From positions 2,790,001 through 2,854,000 of the forward strand of contig NZ_JARXYJ010000001.1 of assembly GCF_029894425.1 (NCBI RefSeq): a DNA stretch of 64,000 bases. Direction: 5' to 3'. The notes under the pieces are model-generated. The model had not been told where the DNA came from and made no database searches. It saw only the letters and a program-made list of their open reading frames with translations. Made by a program: the position numbers and the translations under genes. Positions 55,723 through 59,815 of the stretch are shown piece by piece; positions within the stretch are counted from its first letter, which is position 1; every line of letters starts with the position of its first letter. This DNA is from Streptomyces sp. SAI-127 (lineage in GTDB: Bacteria > Actinomycetota > Actinomycetes > Streptomycetales > Streptomycetaceae).

Positions 55723-56937
55723 TCACGCGGTCGGGTGCGGGTTGCGGGCCATGAAGTCCTCAGCCACCTTCAGCAGCGAATCGTCCGCCGTGAACAAGGA
55801 GATGTGGTCACCGTGCGGTTCCACCCGGAGCTGCCCGCGCGGCAGACCGACGACGACGCGTCGTGAGCCCTCCGGGTGGGCGATGTCGTCGTCCCGGCTG
55901 GTGACGACGAGGGTGGGCGGCTCGACCTTGGCGAGGTACGGCTCCACCGGGGCACCGGTGATGCCGAGGTTGAGCCGGCAGTAGCGGTAGAGCAGTTCCG
56001 GACTGGCGTACGGATACAGCACCAGGTGCGCCACGTCGGCGGGCGTGCTGGTGAGGACCGCCTGACAGAAGGCCGAGTGCACGGCCTGCGCGGCGGACCG
56101 GCTGCGGGCCGCCGCGGTCATCAGCTCGATCAGCCCCTGCTGGTGCGATGTCTTCGGGTAGTCCTCGGCGAACCCGTAGGCGCCGTGCCACAGGCTGAGC
56201 GAGCGGACTCTCGACGGCTGTCCGGCCGCGGCGACCAGCGCGATCGCCGCCCCTCCGCACAGCCCGATCACGTGTGCGTCGGGCAGGCCGTGATGGTCCA
56301 TCACCGCGAACAGGTCGGCCGCCTGGGCGTGGATGTCGGTGGCGTGCTCGCCGCTGAGCCCTGCGGCGCCGAACAGCCCGCGGCTCTCCCAGGTGAGGAC
56401 TCTGCGGTCACACGCGAAGAAGCGCACCCAGTTCTCCGCGAGGGCCGCCGGCATACCGCACGCGGGGACCAGGACCACGGTCTCTTCACCCTCGCCCGCC
56501 GTGTACACGTTCAGCGGCACGCCGTCCGGCGACAGGACGGTCTCCCTGCGGGTGTACCCCTCGAAGGTGTTCGCCAGGGCGTCGGCGACCACCCGGTCCA
56601 CCTCACCGAGTCGGTCCACCGGCACCACGCCGACGGAGTCCAGCACGTCTGCCAGCGCCAGCCGTTCGCTCACCACGCGTTCGAAGACCTGCAGGTCGTC
56701 GAAGCCCTCCGCGCCGGACAGCACGAGCCCGTCGACTCCGGCCCGGCGGGCCACCCGGTCCAGCAGCGCGCGCAGTGCTCGCCACTGACCGGGAGACCGG
56801 CCACCGGGGGACGCGTCCGCGGTGCGGGCGACCGGAACCACCCGCACCGGGGCGGCGATCCCCTCGAGGAGCGGTTTCACCGACTGCACGGCCGTGGCCA
56901 GGCGGGCCACCGCCGACCTCGTTTCCGGTCCCAGCAT
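55723..56937 (-). CDS. SyrC/CmaE-like aminoacyl transferase with Cys nucleophile
   Basis: A 404-residue alpha/beta-hydrolase-fold protein. The nucleophile elbow is VIGLCGGAA, so Cys227 replaces the usual Ser; the acid is likely in [12 protein letters not shown] and the His in [11 protein letters not shown] 130-residue N-terminal extension precedes the hydrolase core ([18 protein letters not shown]). SyrC and CmaE are such cysteine transferases: they move an aminoacyl group from the stand-alone carrier protein where halogenation occurs to another carrier. The gene ends the operon of adenylation, carrier and halogenase genes, exactly the SyrB1/B2/C set. AAGGAGG precedes ATG 56937. Confidence 0.75.
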
Positions 56938-56965
56938 GCGTTTCGCCTCCTTCGGGCCTACGCCG

Positions 56966-57913
56966 TCACCGCTTGGGGAACTCGTGTCCCTTGGTGGTGC
57001 GCGTGACCCGTCGGTTGTGCTGGTAGGTGTCGGTGCCCGCGACCAGGACCGTGCCGTACTCGCTGAGGCTCACCCGGCCGCCGTACTCGTCGACTTCGTC
57101 GGTGTCCGGGTACACCGCCACGGAAGTCGGCACGTACCGGCCGGCGAAGCCGAGCCGCATCTCCTTCTCCGGTGCGGAATGCGGTTTGGAGGCGTGCATC
57201 ATCGTGGACCAGAACATCACCGCTTCACCGGGACGCATCACCATGGAGACGGCCTGCTCCTGCGGAGGGCGCCAGTCAGGATCCTTCTGCAACTGCCGGT
57301 AGTCGTAGCCGTAGAACCCGCGGGGAACACCCTCCTTGTGCTGCCTGTTGATCGCGTCCGGCTGGTAGTGCATCTCCTTCGACTCGTCGTAGTACATGGT
57401 CCGTTGCGTGCCGGGGATGAACTGCAGGCAGCCGGTGTCCTCGGAGGCCTCGGTGAACGCTGTCCACACGGTGATGGTGCCACCGAAGTCCTTCTCCGAC
57501 TCCGGCCACACGATCTGCGGCTTGCCCGAGGCGAAGGCGAAGGTGTCCGCCTGGTGCCAGTCGGTGCCCTCGTCACCGGGGTACTTCGGGAAGAACTCCG
57601 AGCGCCAGCACAGTACGTTCGGTCCCAGCACCGCGGTCACCCGGTCGACGATCTCCGGCCGGCATATGTGGTCGGCCAGGAAGGCGGAGTCGAGGTGCCG
57701 GTCGTAGTTCGCGATGTTGGTGTTCCCGGCCTGGGCGTCGCCCTCGTCGTAGACGGCGCCGCTGCGGTCCATCAGCCGCAGCCGCTCGCGGCGCCACAGC
57801 CGCCGCATCTCCTCCTCCTCGTACACCTTGAACGGGCCCAGGTAGCCCAGCTCGTGGAACCTGGCGACCTCTTCGGGGGTCGGTGTGAACGTCTGCTGCA
57901 CCGTGTGCGTCAT
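56966..57913 (-). CDS. SyrB2-type non-haem Fe(II)/2-oxoglutarate halogenase
   Basis: A 315-residue PhyH-fold enzyme that chlorinates an unactivated carbon of an aminoacyl group tethered to a carrier protein. The metal site is [17 protein letters not shown]: His120-Gln-Ala122, with Ala where hydroxylases have Asp/Glu, leaving room for chloride. The second ligand is His240 in [10 protein letters not shown], and Arg253 in [10 protein letters not shown] should bind 2-oxoglutarate. Stretches such as [22 protein letters not shown] and YGYDYRQLQ follow SyrB2 closely. By analogy the product is 4-chloro-threonine. It is encoded directly after its presumed carrier protein, with GAAGGG before ATG 57913. 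Confidence 0.92.
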
Positions 57914-57931
57914 CGTGAAGGCCCTTCTGCG

Positions 57932-58192
57932 TCAGTGGTCTGTGCCGGCGGTCTGGGTGTCGACGAGCGCGGACAACGTGTCGATGCTGGCTTCCTCCAG
58001 TGCGGCGACGTCGAGCGTGATGTCGTACTTCTCGTTGAGCTGGGCGACGATCCGTATGAAGGCCAGCGACGTGACGCCCTGGTCGAAGAGGTCGACGACG
58101 GGGTCTATGCCGCCCCCCTCCAGCACCGTGCTGACGATCTCCGTCACCGAGCGGCGGATCGCGGTCGCGGACACATCCGGCGACACGGTCAT
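57932..58192 (-). CDS. Stand-alone peptidyl carrier protein
   Basis: An 86-residue acyl-carrier fold. The phosphopantetheine Ser42 is in LFDQGVTSLAFIRIV. Helix I and the acidic helix II are typical. It should be loaded by the neighbouring adenylation protein (28 bases upstream) and hold the aminoacyl substrate for the halogenase gene that begins 19 bases after its stop. AGAGGAG lies nine bases before ATG 58192. Confidence 0.9.
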   Translation of the reverse strand: MTVSPDVSATAIRRSVTEIVSTVLEGGGIDPVVDLFDQGVTSLAFIRIVAQLNEKYDITLDVAALEEASIDTLSALVDTQTAGTDH

Positions 58193-58219
58193 GATGTGGG
58201 CTCCTCTCCCCTACTCGAC

Positions 58220-59815
58220 TCATTTGCCAAGCGCATCGCGGTTCACCTTTCCTTGCAGGGTCATGGGGAACTCCGAGACGACCTCGTAGCGGGACGGCCT
58301 CAGGTGTCTGGGCAATTGGCTCCTGATGTGCCGTTCCGCCAGGGCGACCAGCCGGGCCGCCTCCTGTCCGCCGGGGTCGGCCGGACGTACGGGCAGCAGG
58401 TAGGCGACCAGCCGCACGTCGCCGTCGCCGAAGTCGCGAGGCGCGGCGACGGCACGTGCCACGTCCGGAAGGCGTGCCAGGCATTCCTCGATCTCGGCGG
58501 GTTCGATCCGGTAGCCGCGGATCTTCAATTGGTCGTCCGTGCGACCGAGATAGACCAGCTCGCCGCCTGGCAGCCGCATCGCGCGGTCGCCGGTGCGGTA
58601 GAGCCGCTCCTCATCGATCCCGGCCACCGACGGCACGAACCGTTCGGCGGTGAGTTCGGGCCGGTTGAGGTAGCCGCGGGCGAGCCCCGCGCCGGCGACG
58701 TACATCTCTCCCGGCACACCGTCCGGTTGGGGCGTGCCGAGTTCGTCGAGGACGTACACGCGCAGGTCGGGCAGCGGCACGCCGATCGGGCTGGTTCCCG
58801 TGCCGAGGGTGACGTCCGAGGTGGTGATCCGGCGGTACGTGCAGTGCACAGTGGTCTCGGTGATGCCGTACATGTTGACCAGTTCGGGTGTGTGGTCGCC
58901 GTGCCGGTCGATCCAGGGGGCGAGCATCCGCGGGTCCAGTCGCTCGCCGCCGAAGATGATCAGCCGCAGTGCGAGGCCGTCCGTGTCCGGTGCGCCGCCC
59001 CGGCCGGAGAACAGCACGCCCAGCAACTGGTGGAAGGCCGAGGGGGTCTGGTTCAGCACGGTCACCTGTTCGTCCCGCAGCAGGGCGACCAGGTTCTCGG
59101 GCGACCGGGAGACGGTCTCCGGCAGCAGCACCAGCCGCCCGCCGTGCAGCAGCGCGCCCCAGATCTCCCAGACCGAGAAGTCGAAGCTGATGGAGTGGAA
59201 CAGCGACCAGGTGTCACGGTGGTCGAAGTGGAACCACGACCGAGTCTGCTCGAACAACCGCACGGCATTCCGGTGTGTGACGGTGACGCCCTTCGGCGCG
59301 CCGGTGGAACCGGAGGTGTAGATGACGTAGGCCAGGTCGTCCGCGGAGGGCTCGACCGACTCCGGCGTCGTGGCCCCGCGGTCGGCGGGGATACGGCCGG
59401 ACGCGGTCGTTCCCGGGTCGAGGGAGACGTCGTCCCCCTCGACCCACACGATGGCGGGGTGACGCCCGCCGAGCACGTCGGCGGTCTCCCGTGCGGCCAC
59501 CACGAGGGGCACCGCGCTGTCGGCGAGCAGATAGTCGATCCGGGCGGCCGGATAGCCCGGATCGATCGGCACGTAGGCCCCGCCCGCCTTGAGGATGCCC
59601 AGCATGGCGACGATGGCTTCCGTGCTCCGCCGAGCGCACAGCCCGACCAGGCCGCCCGGCCGCACGCCGAGCCCGGCGAGGCGTGCGGCCAGCCGGTCGC
59701 TGCGTGCGTCGAGTTCGCCGTACGACACCGGTCCGGTCGGTGTGGACAGGGCGACCCGACCGGGTGCCGCCCGGGCACGTTCGGAGAAAATTGCGTGGAG
59801 GAAGTCAGCCGACAT
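58220..59815 (-). CDS. Stand-alone NRPS adenylation protein, predicted L-threonine
   Basis: A 531-residue amino-acid-activating enzyme with all core motifs: LKAGGAYVPIDP, YTSGSTGAPKGV, NMYGITETTVH, GELVYLGRTDDQLKIRGYRIE and LQGKVNRDAL. The pocket residues read D212 F213 W216 N255 I287 G289 M315 V323 H324, which is the threonine code DFWNIGMVH. It has no condensation or thiolation domain, so it loads the separate carrier protein downstream, as SyrB1 and CytC1-type systems do. ATG 59815 is preferred over the adjacent GTG. The 160-base leader carries a StrR-type operator. Confidence 0.93.
   Translation of the reverse strand: MSADFLHAIFSERARAAPGRVALSTPTGPVSYGELDARSDRLAARLAGLGVRPGGLVGLCARRSTEAIVAMLGILKAGGAYVPIDPGYPAARIDYLLADSAVPLVVAARETADVLGGRHPAIVWVEGDDVSLDPGTTASGRIPADRGATTPESVEPSADDLAYVIYTSGSTGAPKGVTVTHRNAVRLFEQTRSWFHFDHRDTWSLFHSISFDFSVWEIWGALLHGGRLVLLPETVSRSPENLVALLRDEQVTVLNQTPSAFHQLLGVLFSGRGGAPDTDGLALRLIIFGGERLDPRMLAPWIDRHGDHTPELVNMYGITETTVHCTYRRITTSDVTLGTGTSPIGVPLPDLRVYVLDELGTPQPDGVPGEMYVAGAGLARGYLNRPELTAERFVPSVAGIDEERLYRTGDRAMRLPGGELVYLGRTDDQLKIRGYRIEPAEIEECLARLPDVARAVAAPRDFGDGDVRLVAYLLPVRPADPGGQEAARLVALAERHIRSQLPRHLRPSRYEVVSEFPMTLQGKVNRDALGK

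Follow-up and report, generated by a model that had tools for sequence, protein, structure and literature searches.

The question raised by the 64,000-nucleotide stretch of Streptomyces sp. SAI-127 DNA analyzed here (contig NZ_JARXYJ010000001.1, positions 2,790,001 to 2,854,000; hereafter the window) is what a compact operon on its minus strand (59818-55723), which resembles the SyrB1/SyrB2/SyrC set of syringomycin biosynthesis, produces and where its product goes. The operon turns out to be one end of a seven-module nonribosomal peptide synthetase (NRPS) cluster with piperazate genes, most of which lie beyond the window; coordinates above 64000 carry the window numbering past its end, and adding 2790000 to any coordinate gives the contig position. 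We consider it probable that the operon serves as a side line that loads threonine, most likely chlorinated at C4, in trans into residue 2 of a piperazate-containing peptide. The cluster would then be a variant on the SyrB1/SyrB2/SyrC trans-loading theme, which is itself already known.

The existence of the four-gene operon is near certain, as its genes are tightly spaced on the common minus strand and each matches its family. A free-standing adenylation (A) protein resembling the A part of SyrB1 (58220-59818; PF00501, 313 bits), the predicted L-threonine loader, is accompanied by a free-standing carrier protein (57932-58192; PF00550, 41.5 bits) in which the serine of the GVTSL motif is present, by the SyrB2-type Fe(II)/2-oxoglutarate halogenase Hal1 (56966-57913), and by a SyrC-like aminoacyl transferase (55723-56937; PF00561). 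Hal1 scores 450 bits against TIGR01762 (cut-off 226 bits) and matches the structures of SyrB2 (PDB 2fct, E=3e-140) and CytC3 (PDB 3gja, E=5e-128), and a match as strong as that to SyrB2 means that the likeness of the operon is not due to chance. It has the two histidines, the HxA without a carboxylate and the 2-oxoglutarate arginine of SyrB2-type halogenases: HQA stands where HxD/E would be, and H120, A122, H240 and both Arg are conserved. The transferase, like SyrC and CmaE, is an alpha/beta hydrolase with a cysteine nucleophile adjoining a loading set; its nucleophile elbow reads GLCGG, and cysteine was found in all 62 loci whose alignment extended across the motif, among 80 loci searched. 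A first-pass annotation of this DNA had named these four families as a SyrB1/SyrB2/SyrC-like set and had suggested a comparison with the syringomycin and CytC sets, and the matches bear it out.

Threonine, which the same annotation had assumed as substrate, is strongly predicted by the code of the A protein, DFWNIGMVHK, which we take to be a threonine code; its orthologues in S. curacoi, S. natalensis and a further genome (G1018) read DFWN[IV]GMVHK. In tblastn searches, homologues of the A protein, the halogenase and SyrC cluster together in many of 108 loci (80 named loci and 28 loci of about 4 kb each). All 65 partner A proteins that could be read, at no less than 43% identity and more than 85% coverage, carry the threonine-type code DFW[NS][IV]GMVHK; all of them come from the 80 named loci and none from the 28 short ones, two of these loci (L031 and L032) represent one strain, and since 12 of the 65 matches sit in an open frame of over 1000 residues, some may be NRPS domains and not free partners.

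The supposition that genes to the right of the window build a peptide, and the proposal to look there for a carrier without a threonine adenylation domain of its own, both found their counterpart in two NRPS genes at 75115-101844, N2 (75115-83247) and N1 (83251-101844). With condensation (C), carrier (T), epimerization (E), methyltransferase (MT) and thioesterase (TE) domains, the layout reads C-A1-T-C-A2-T-E-C-A3-T-C-A4-T-E-C-A5-T / C-A6(MT)-T-C-A7-T-TE. A3 and A4 share the code DVFSVAAYAK, presumably for piperazate, and A5 has DILQLGLIWK, which we take to be a glycine code and in which one alignment column was gapped, so that its L was read directly from the protein. A6 has the code DAFWWGGVF and an N-methyltransferase within the domain, A1 has DAYFWGVVYK, and A7 has DPYLWGACNK. 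The piperazate pathway pair is recognizable by sequence, consisting of the ornithine N-hydroxylase KtzI (111105-112442; match to 4tlx, E=4e-158) and the haem-type piperazate synthase KtzT (114397-115041; match to 9ebk, E=2e-94), and an MbtH gene also lies beyond the NRPS.

The second of the seven A domains is dead. Core motif A3 of the A2 domain reads SGPDGRPRG instead of SGSTGxPKG, core motif A10 reads GELDR instead of GKxDR, and the damaged core motif A8 reads RVRVDGLLAEPAEVE; the six other A domains look intact (the A10 motif of the A6 domain comes after the methyltransferase), and the carrier of module 2 is intact and conserved. A2 is likewise broken in the S. curacoi and G1018 clusters. 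The S. natalensis domain, with SGPTGQPKG, is degenerate, yet its A10 lysine is retained, which makes some remaining activity possible there. By the Nei-Gojobori method, applied to the single pair of the window genome and S. curacoi, A2 has a dN/dS ratio of 0.47, compared with 0.18-0.33 in the remaining six A domains and 0.18-0.26 in three C domains; the module 2 carrier, which is short (67 codons), has 0.04. When S. natalensis is the reference, A2 has a dN of 0.35 and five of the other A domains have 0.18-0.24. The decay of an A domain next to a strongly conserved carrier, in clusters none of which has lost the threonine set, points to a residue 2 that comes from outside; this is the best evidence for a supply in trans, and such an entry of threonine at residue 2 appears likely.

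SyrB2-type halogenases are not rare, as 39 of 392 genomes of the genus contain one at E up to 1e-60, and a close SyrC is present in only four of 394 genomes of the family, that of the window included; two of the others, judged from coordinates that agree, appear to be those of S. natalensis and S. curacoi. The threonine set accompanies the orthologous NRPS in all four clusters, even where the gene order differs. The cluster of S. natalensis ATCC 27448 is alike in the threonine set (67-87% identity), N1 (65%), N2 (70%), KtzI and KtzT; it differs in that its A5 reads piperazate and its A1 and A7 codes are others. Its modules follow the order residue, degenerate module, piperazate (Piz), Piz, Piz, N-methyl, residue. 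Nocardia alder85J has a halogenase with 86% identity and large NRPSs on another contig, and was rejected as a carrier of the same cluster, as the best partial matches to N1 and N2 within 100 kb reached 47% and 51%; in a genome whose SyrC-like protein is 50% identical (G1238), the dead module had no match at E up to 1e-80.

The module order of S. natalensis fits a peptide of the PM130391 type. According to the available parts of the publication, S. tuirus PHM034 produces the lipo-heptapeptides PM130391, PM130392 and PM140293, and the nuclear magnetic resonance (NMR) table gives Ala, Thr, PA-1, PA-2, DHPA (a modified piperazate), N-Me-Gly and N-OH-Ala, with Thr second and assigned to a separate A-T enzyme, and with a SyrC-like hydrolase proposed (PMC10609185). 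The later residue order and a ring closure through the Thr hydroxyl can be inferred from this table. Compared by its described architecture and not by sequence, the PM130391 cluster shares with ours the seven residues, a threonine in second place for which delivery from a separate A-T enzyme by a SyrC-like hydrolase is proposed, the KtzI/KtzT pair, N-methylation of one residue, MbtH, a C-starter and a predicted halogenase; it differs in having three piperazates, whereas module 5 has a glycine code here, and an unchlorinated threonine, and the accessible text mentions neither a second halogenase set nor a dead A2 (PMC10609185). As to other candidate products, curacomycin of S. curacoi, a chloro-tryptophan hexapeptide named in the abstract of a review on the desotamide family, was rejected, as was svetamycin, which nothing in the sources available in part links to the cluster. 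No publication on this cluster was found within the literature searched, and the only paper that combines piperazate and chlorothreonine terms concerns, as far as its accessible part goes, pyoverdine engineering.

Among known loading systems, CytC1/CytC3 is similar in its HxA halogenase and in an A protein close to ours (CytC1, E=6e-110), and differs in its substrate, which is aminobutyrate/valine there as opposed to the threonine code here. The syringomycin set likewise consists of a free threonine adenylation unit, a carrier, an HxA halogenase and a cysteine transferase that acts in trans on an NRPS carrier, the functions of SyrB1, SyrB2 and SyrC being taken here as they are cited in the accessible text of two papers (PMC10609185; PMC8748450). 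Unlike in syringomycin biosynthesis, adenylation and carrier are separate proteins in our cluster, and the target module is internal, is followed by an E domain, and has kept a dead A domain.

Hal1 differs from SyrB2 at positions that are otherwise nearly invariant. In a quick tree of 100 rows, Hal1 groups with the halogenases of S. curacoi, S. natalensis and Nocardia alder85J (SH-aLRT support 100), and this subclade, given its Nocardia member, probably extends beyond piperazate clusters. For the site comparison, 106 other sequences were used, including a second S. curacoi copy (L103), without which 105 remain, 95 of them distinct. Among these 105, Asn stands at the position of Hal1 F127 in 99, Phe at that of Y201 in 104, and Leu at that of M238 in 104; A94 and P11 are also common to the members of the subclade, and the G1018 halogenase carries F, Y and M too. 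F127 lies seven residues past the first Fe ligand and M238 two ahead of the second. The three residues align with Asn123, Phe196 and Leu233 of SyrB2, in a numbering for which we assume His116 and His235 as the Fe-ligand positions, and these presumably have a role in SyrB2; no discussion of a role for Asn123 was found in the searched part of the SyrB2 literature. The conserved Asn123/Phe196 pair, which is not a formal requirement of the TIGR01762 family, is thus absent from Hal1. Among the best 120 of 1753 database relatives, which include Hal1 itself, F127 occurs with Y201 in 53 and Asn with Phe in 64, with F and Phe in two and Asn and Y in one; M238 is less fixed than the other two. Changes at nearly invariant sites mean that chlorination by Hal1 is not assured.

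A second halogenase set is situated about 50 kb to the right. It comprises Hal2 (110382-109432; 428 bits to SyrB2), the adenylation protein A570 (109525-107813), a carrier (107816-107544; PF00550), a type II thioesterase (107542-106778), a haem-oxygenase-like protein (105632-104820), and a fused electron transfer flavoprotein (ETF; 104750-102927). All six genes are present in S. curacoi and G1018 (74-97% identity), so the set occurs in three of the four clusters. It was not found in the 80 kb S. natalensis stretch, where the sole match to Hal2 was the Hal1 gene (61%), those to A570, the carrier and the thioesterase were limited to 31-39% and lay inside other genes, and nothing matched the haem-oxygenase-like protein or ETF. 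The code of A570 is DIWLTGLCIK in all three clusters with the set and DAFFLGVTF in all six relatives with readable codes. The A1 code, the glycine code of A5 and the A7 code are common to these three clusters and differ in S. natalensis at all three positions, and from this one contrast we infer that the product of the second set, probably another chlorinated or chlorination-derived residue, may go to residue 1 or 7. For barbamide, BarA/BarC provide a parallel in which a thioesterase frees the chlorinated residue for a later module, as we propose for the second set, although the substrate is another and the likeness here comes from gene content alone (PMC8748450, accessible part).

The haem-oxygenase-like protein is a weak assignment, as the copy of the window genome has no Pfam match, two relatives match PF14518 below the cut-off, and one relative is called PqqC-like. 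An identity as BesC was rejected, since there was no NCBIfam BesC match at E up to 1; one relative (P0097) reached E=0.14 for BesC, below the cut-off. The protein belongs to an uncharacterized family spread over several phyla, and its identity with the best 120 of 330 database relatives is 62-91%. Whole-genome searches located it in S. curacoi but not in any of five further named genomes, one of them S. natalensis; among 396 genomes of the phylum, that of the window was the sole one to contain it at E up to 1e-50. A YbaK-type aminoacyl-tRNA editing protein (102064-102558; PF04073) adjoins the second set, is also present in G1018, gave no match in the stretches from S. curacoi and S. natalensis, and might clear a mischarged amino-acid analogue. 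In S. iakyrus (L101) and Actinoplanes xinjiangensis (L086), a small halogenase-thioesterase-A set with the A code DAFFLGVTFK, its carrier being read in L101, has a permease and regulators in its neighbourhood, and the listed open reading frames of about 21 kb include no large NRPS frame; the product of the set may be a free halogenated amino acid.

We propose that the A protein adenylates L-threonine and loads the free carrier, as its code and the architecture suggest, and that Hal1 would then act on the threonyl carrier, most likely chlorinating C4, which by homology to SyrB2 is plausible and is the least certain step. The SyrC-like cysteine transferase would pass the residue on to the carrier of module 2, a module in which the A domain is seen to be dead and in which the E domain would epimerize the residue. 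The product would have the form acyl?-X1-(Cl)Thr-Piz-Piz-Gly-NMe-X6-X7, with the residue of the second set at position 1 or 7, and would be released by the terminal TE; it is perhaps a cyclodepsipeptide, with a ring closed through the Thr hydroxyl as we read it for PM130391. Several observations weigh against this reading. Hal1 and its near relatives have Phe and Tyr at the positions of Asn123 and Phe196, A5 has a higher dN (0.43) than A2 against S. natalensis, where the A5 code differs, and the second set could serve module 2 instead. In the accessible text on PM130391, a halogenase is predicted, halogenation is not reported, and the Thr methyl signal (15.7/1.30 ppm) is plainly that of an unchlorinated residue (PMC10609185). 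The earlier suggestion that the operon makes 4-chlorothreonine, with a peptide as one of two possible destinations, stands as to the NRPS, and is left in doubt by the relative with plain Thr and the subclade changes as to the presence of 4-chlorothreonine in the product. On balance, we still favour chlorination by Hal1, with real evidence against it.

A rather unlikely alternative, in line with the unchlorinated Thr of PM130391 beside a predicted halogenase, keeps the trans-loading and assumes that Hal1 no longer chlorinates, being silent, retired or repurposed, so that plain or hydroxylated Thr enters at residue 2. The subclade-specific F127, Y201 and M238, of which two are close in sequence to the Fe ligands, agree with this; all compared Fe and 2-oxoglutarate ligand positions are intact in Hal1, however, its 87-96% identity in the other three clusters suggests selection, and an HxA that lacks the carboxylate fits poorly with a simple hydroxylase. 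A more specific version, which we regard as unlikely, is that the exchange of Asn123 for Phe together with Phe196 for Tyr redirected or removed chlorination on the threonyl carrier, possibly explaining the unchlorinated Thr of the relative. That the second set (A570, carrier, Hal2 and thioesterase) loads module 2, while the threonine set serves another position, is improbable: only one dead A domain is seen, and a type II thioesterase can shift an aminoacyl group between carriers (PMC8748450, accessible part), but S. natalensis combines the threonine set and a degenerate A2 with no second set found, PM130391 carries Thr second (PMC10609185), and the SyrC-like transferase adjoins the threonine set only. 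Least probable is a set that merely lies beside the NRPS cluster and makes 4-chlorothreonine as a released antimetabolite. Free 4-chlorothreonine is produced by Streptomyces, and a putative type II thioesterase is encoded nearby (61841-62566), yet all four clusters keep the threonine set together with the orthologous NRPS and have a module 2 whose A domain is dead or degenerate.

The adjoining genes of the window, all on the minus strand, have homologues in the other clusters to varying extents. The gene at 59979-60983 had been annotated as a StrR-type activator, which we could not confirm, as the protein shows, of the ParB-like N terminus and helix-turn-helix expected of such an activator, only weak helix-turn-helix matches and is better called a putative helix-turn-helix regulator; a homologue is present in the S. 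curacoi stretch and was not found in those of S. natalensis or G1018. The dimethylargininase/arginine-dihydrolase-like enzyme (60920-61798) was correctly recognized (NF045659, 429 bits, cut-off 300), has homologues in all three other clusters (58-87%), placed differently in S. natalensis, and might supply ornithine for piperazate. The putative thioesterase mentioned above, named from its kinship to other thioesterases, has homologues at 56-90% in these clusters, and the S9 prolyl-oligopeptidase-like enzyme (62614-64000, continuing to 64905 past the window), correctly predicted as an S9 peptidase (PF00326), at 77-92%. To the left of the cluster lies a DDE transposase gene (47018-47704; PF01609), and partial second copies of a transporter-like gene (51347-51903/55109-55660) and of another flanking gene (46230-46470/54021-54261), with identities of 87-97% and 89% and in the order of the full genes, abut the left end of the operon; they are perhaps a duplication scar at the cluster's edge.

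Our model predicts which residue of a piperazate peptide comes from outside, and in the cluster a single assembly line is accompanied by two halogenase lines. The four clusters also show an A domain at different points of its decay, with a degenerate form in one cluster and dead forms in three. If the two exchanges in Hal1 did redirect or remove chlorination, they would amount to a natural experiment on what sets the outcome in enzymes of the SyrB2 type, and the Hal1 subclade is a directly testable case for chlorination versus other outcomes.

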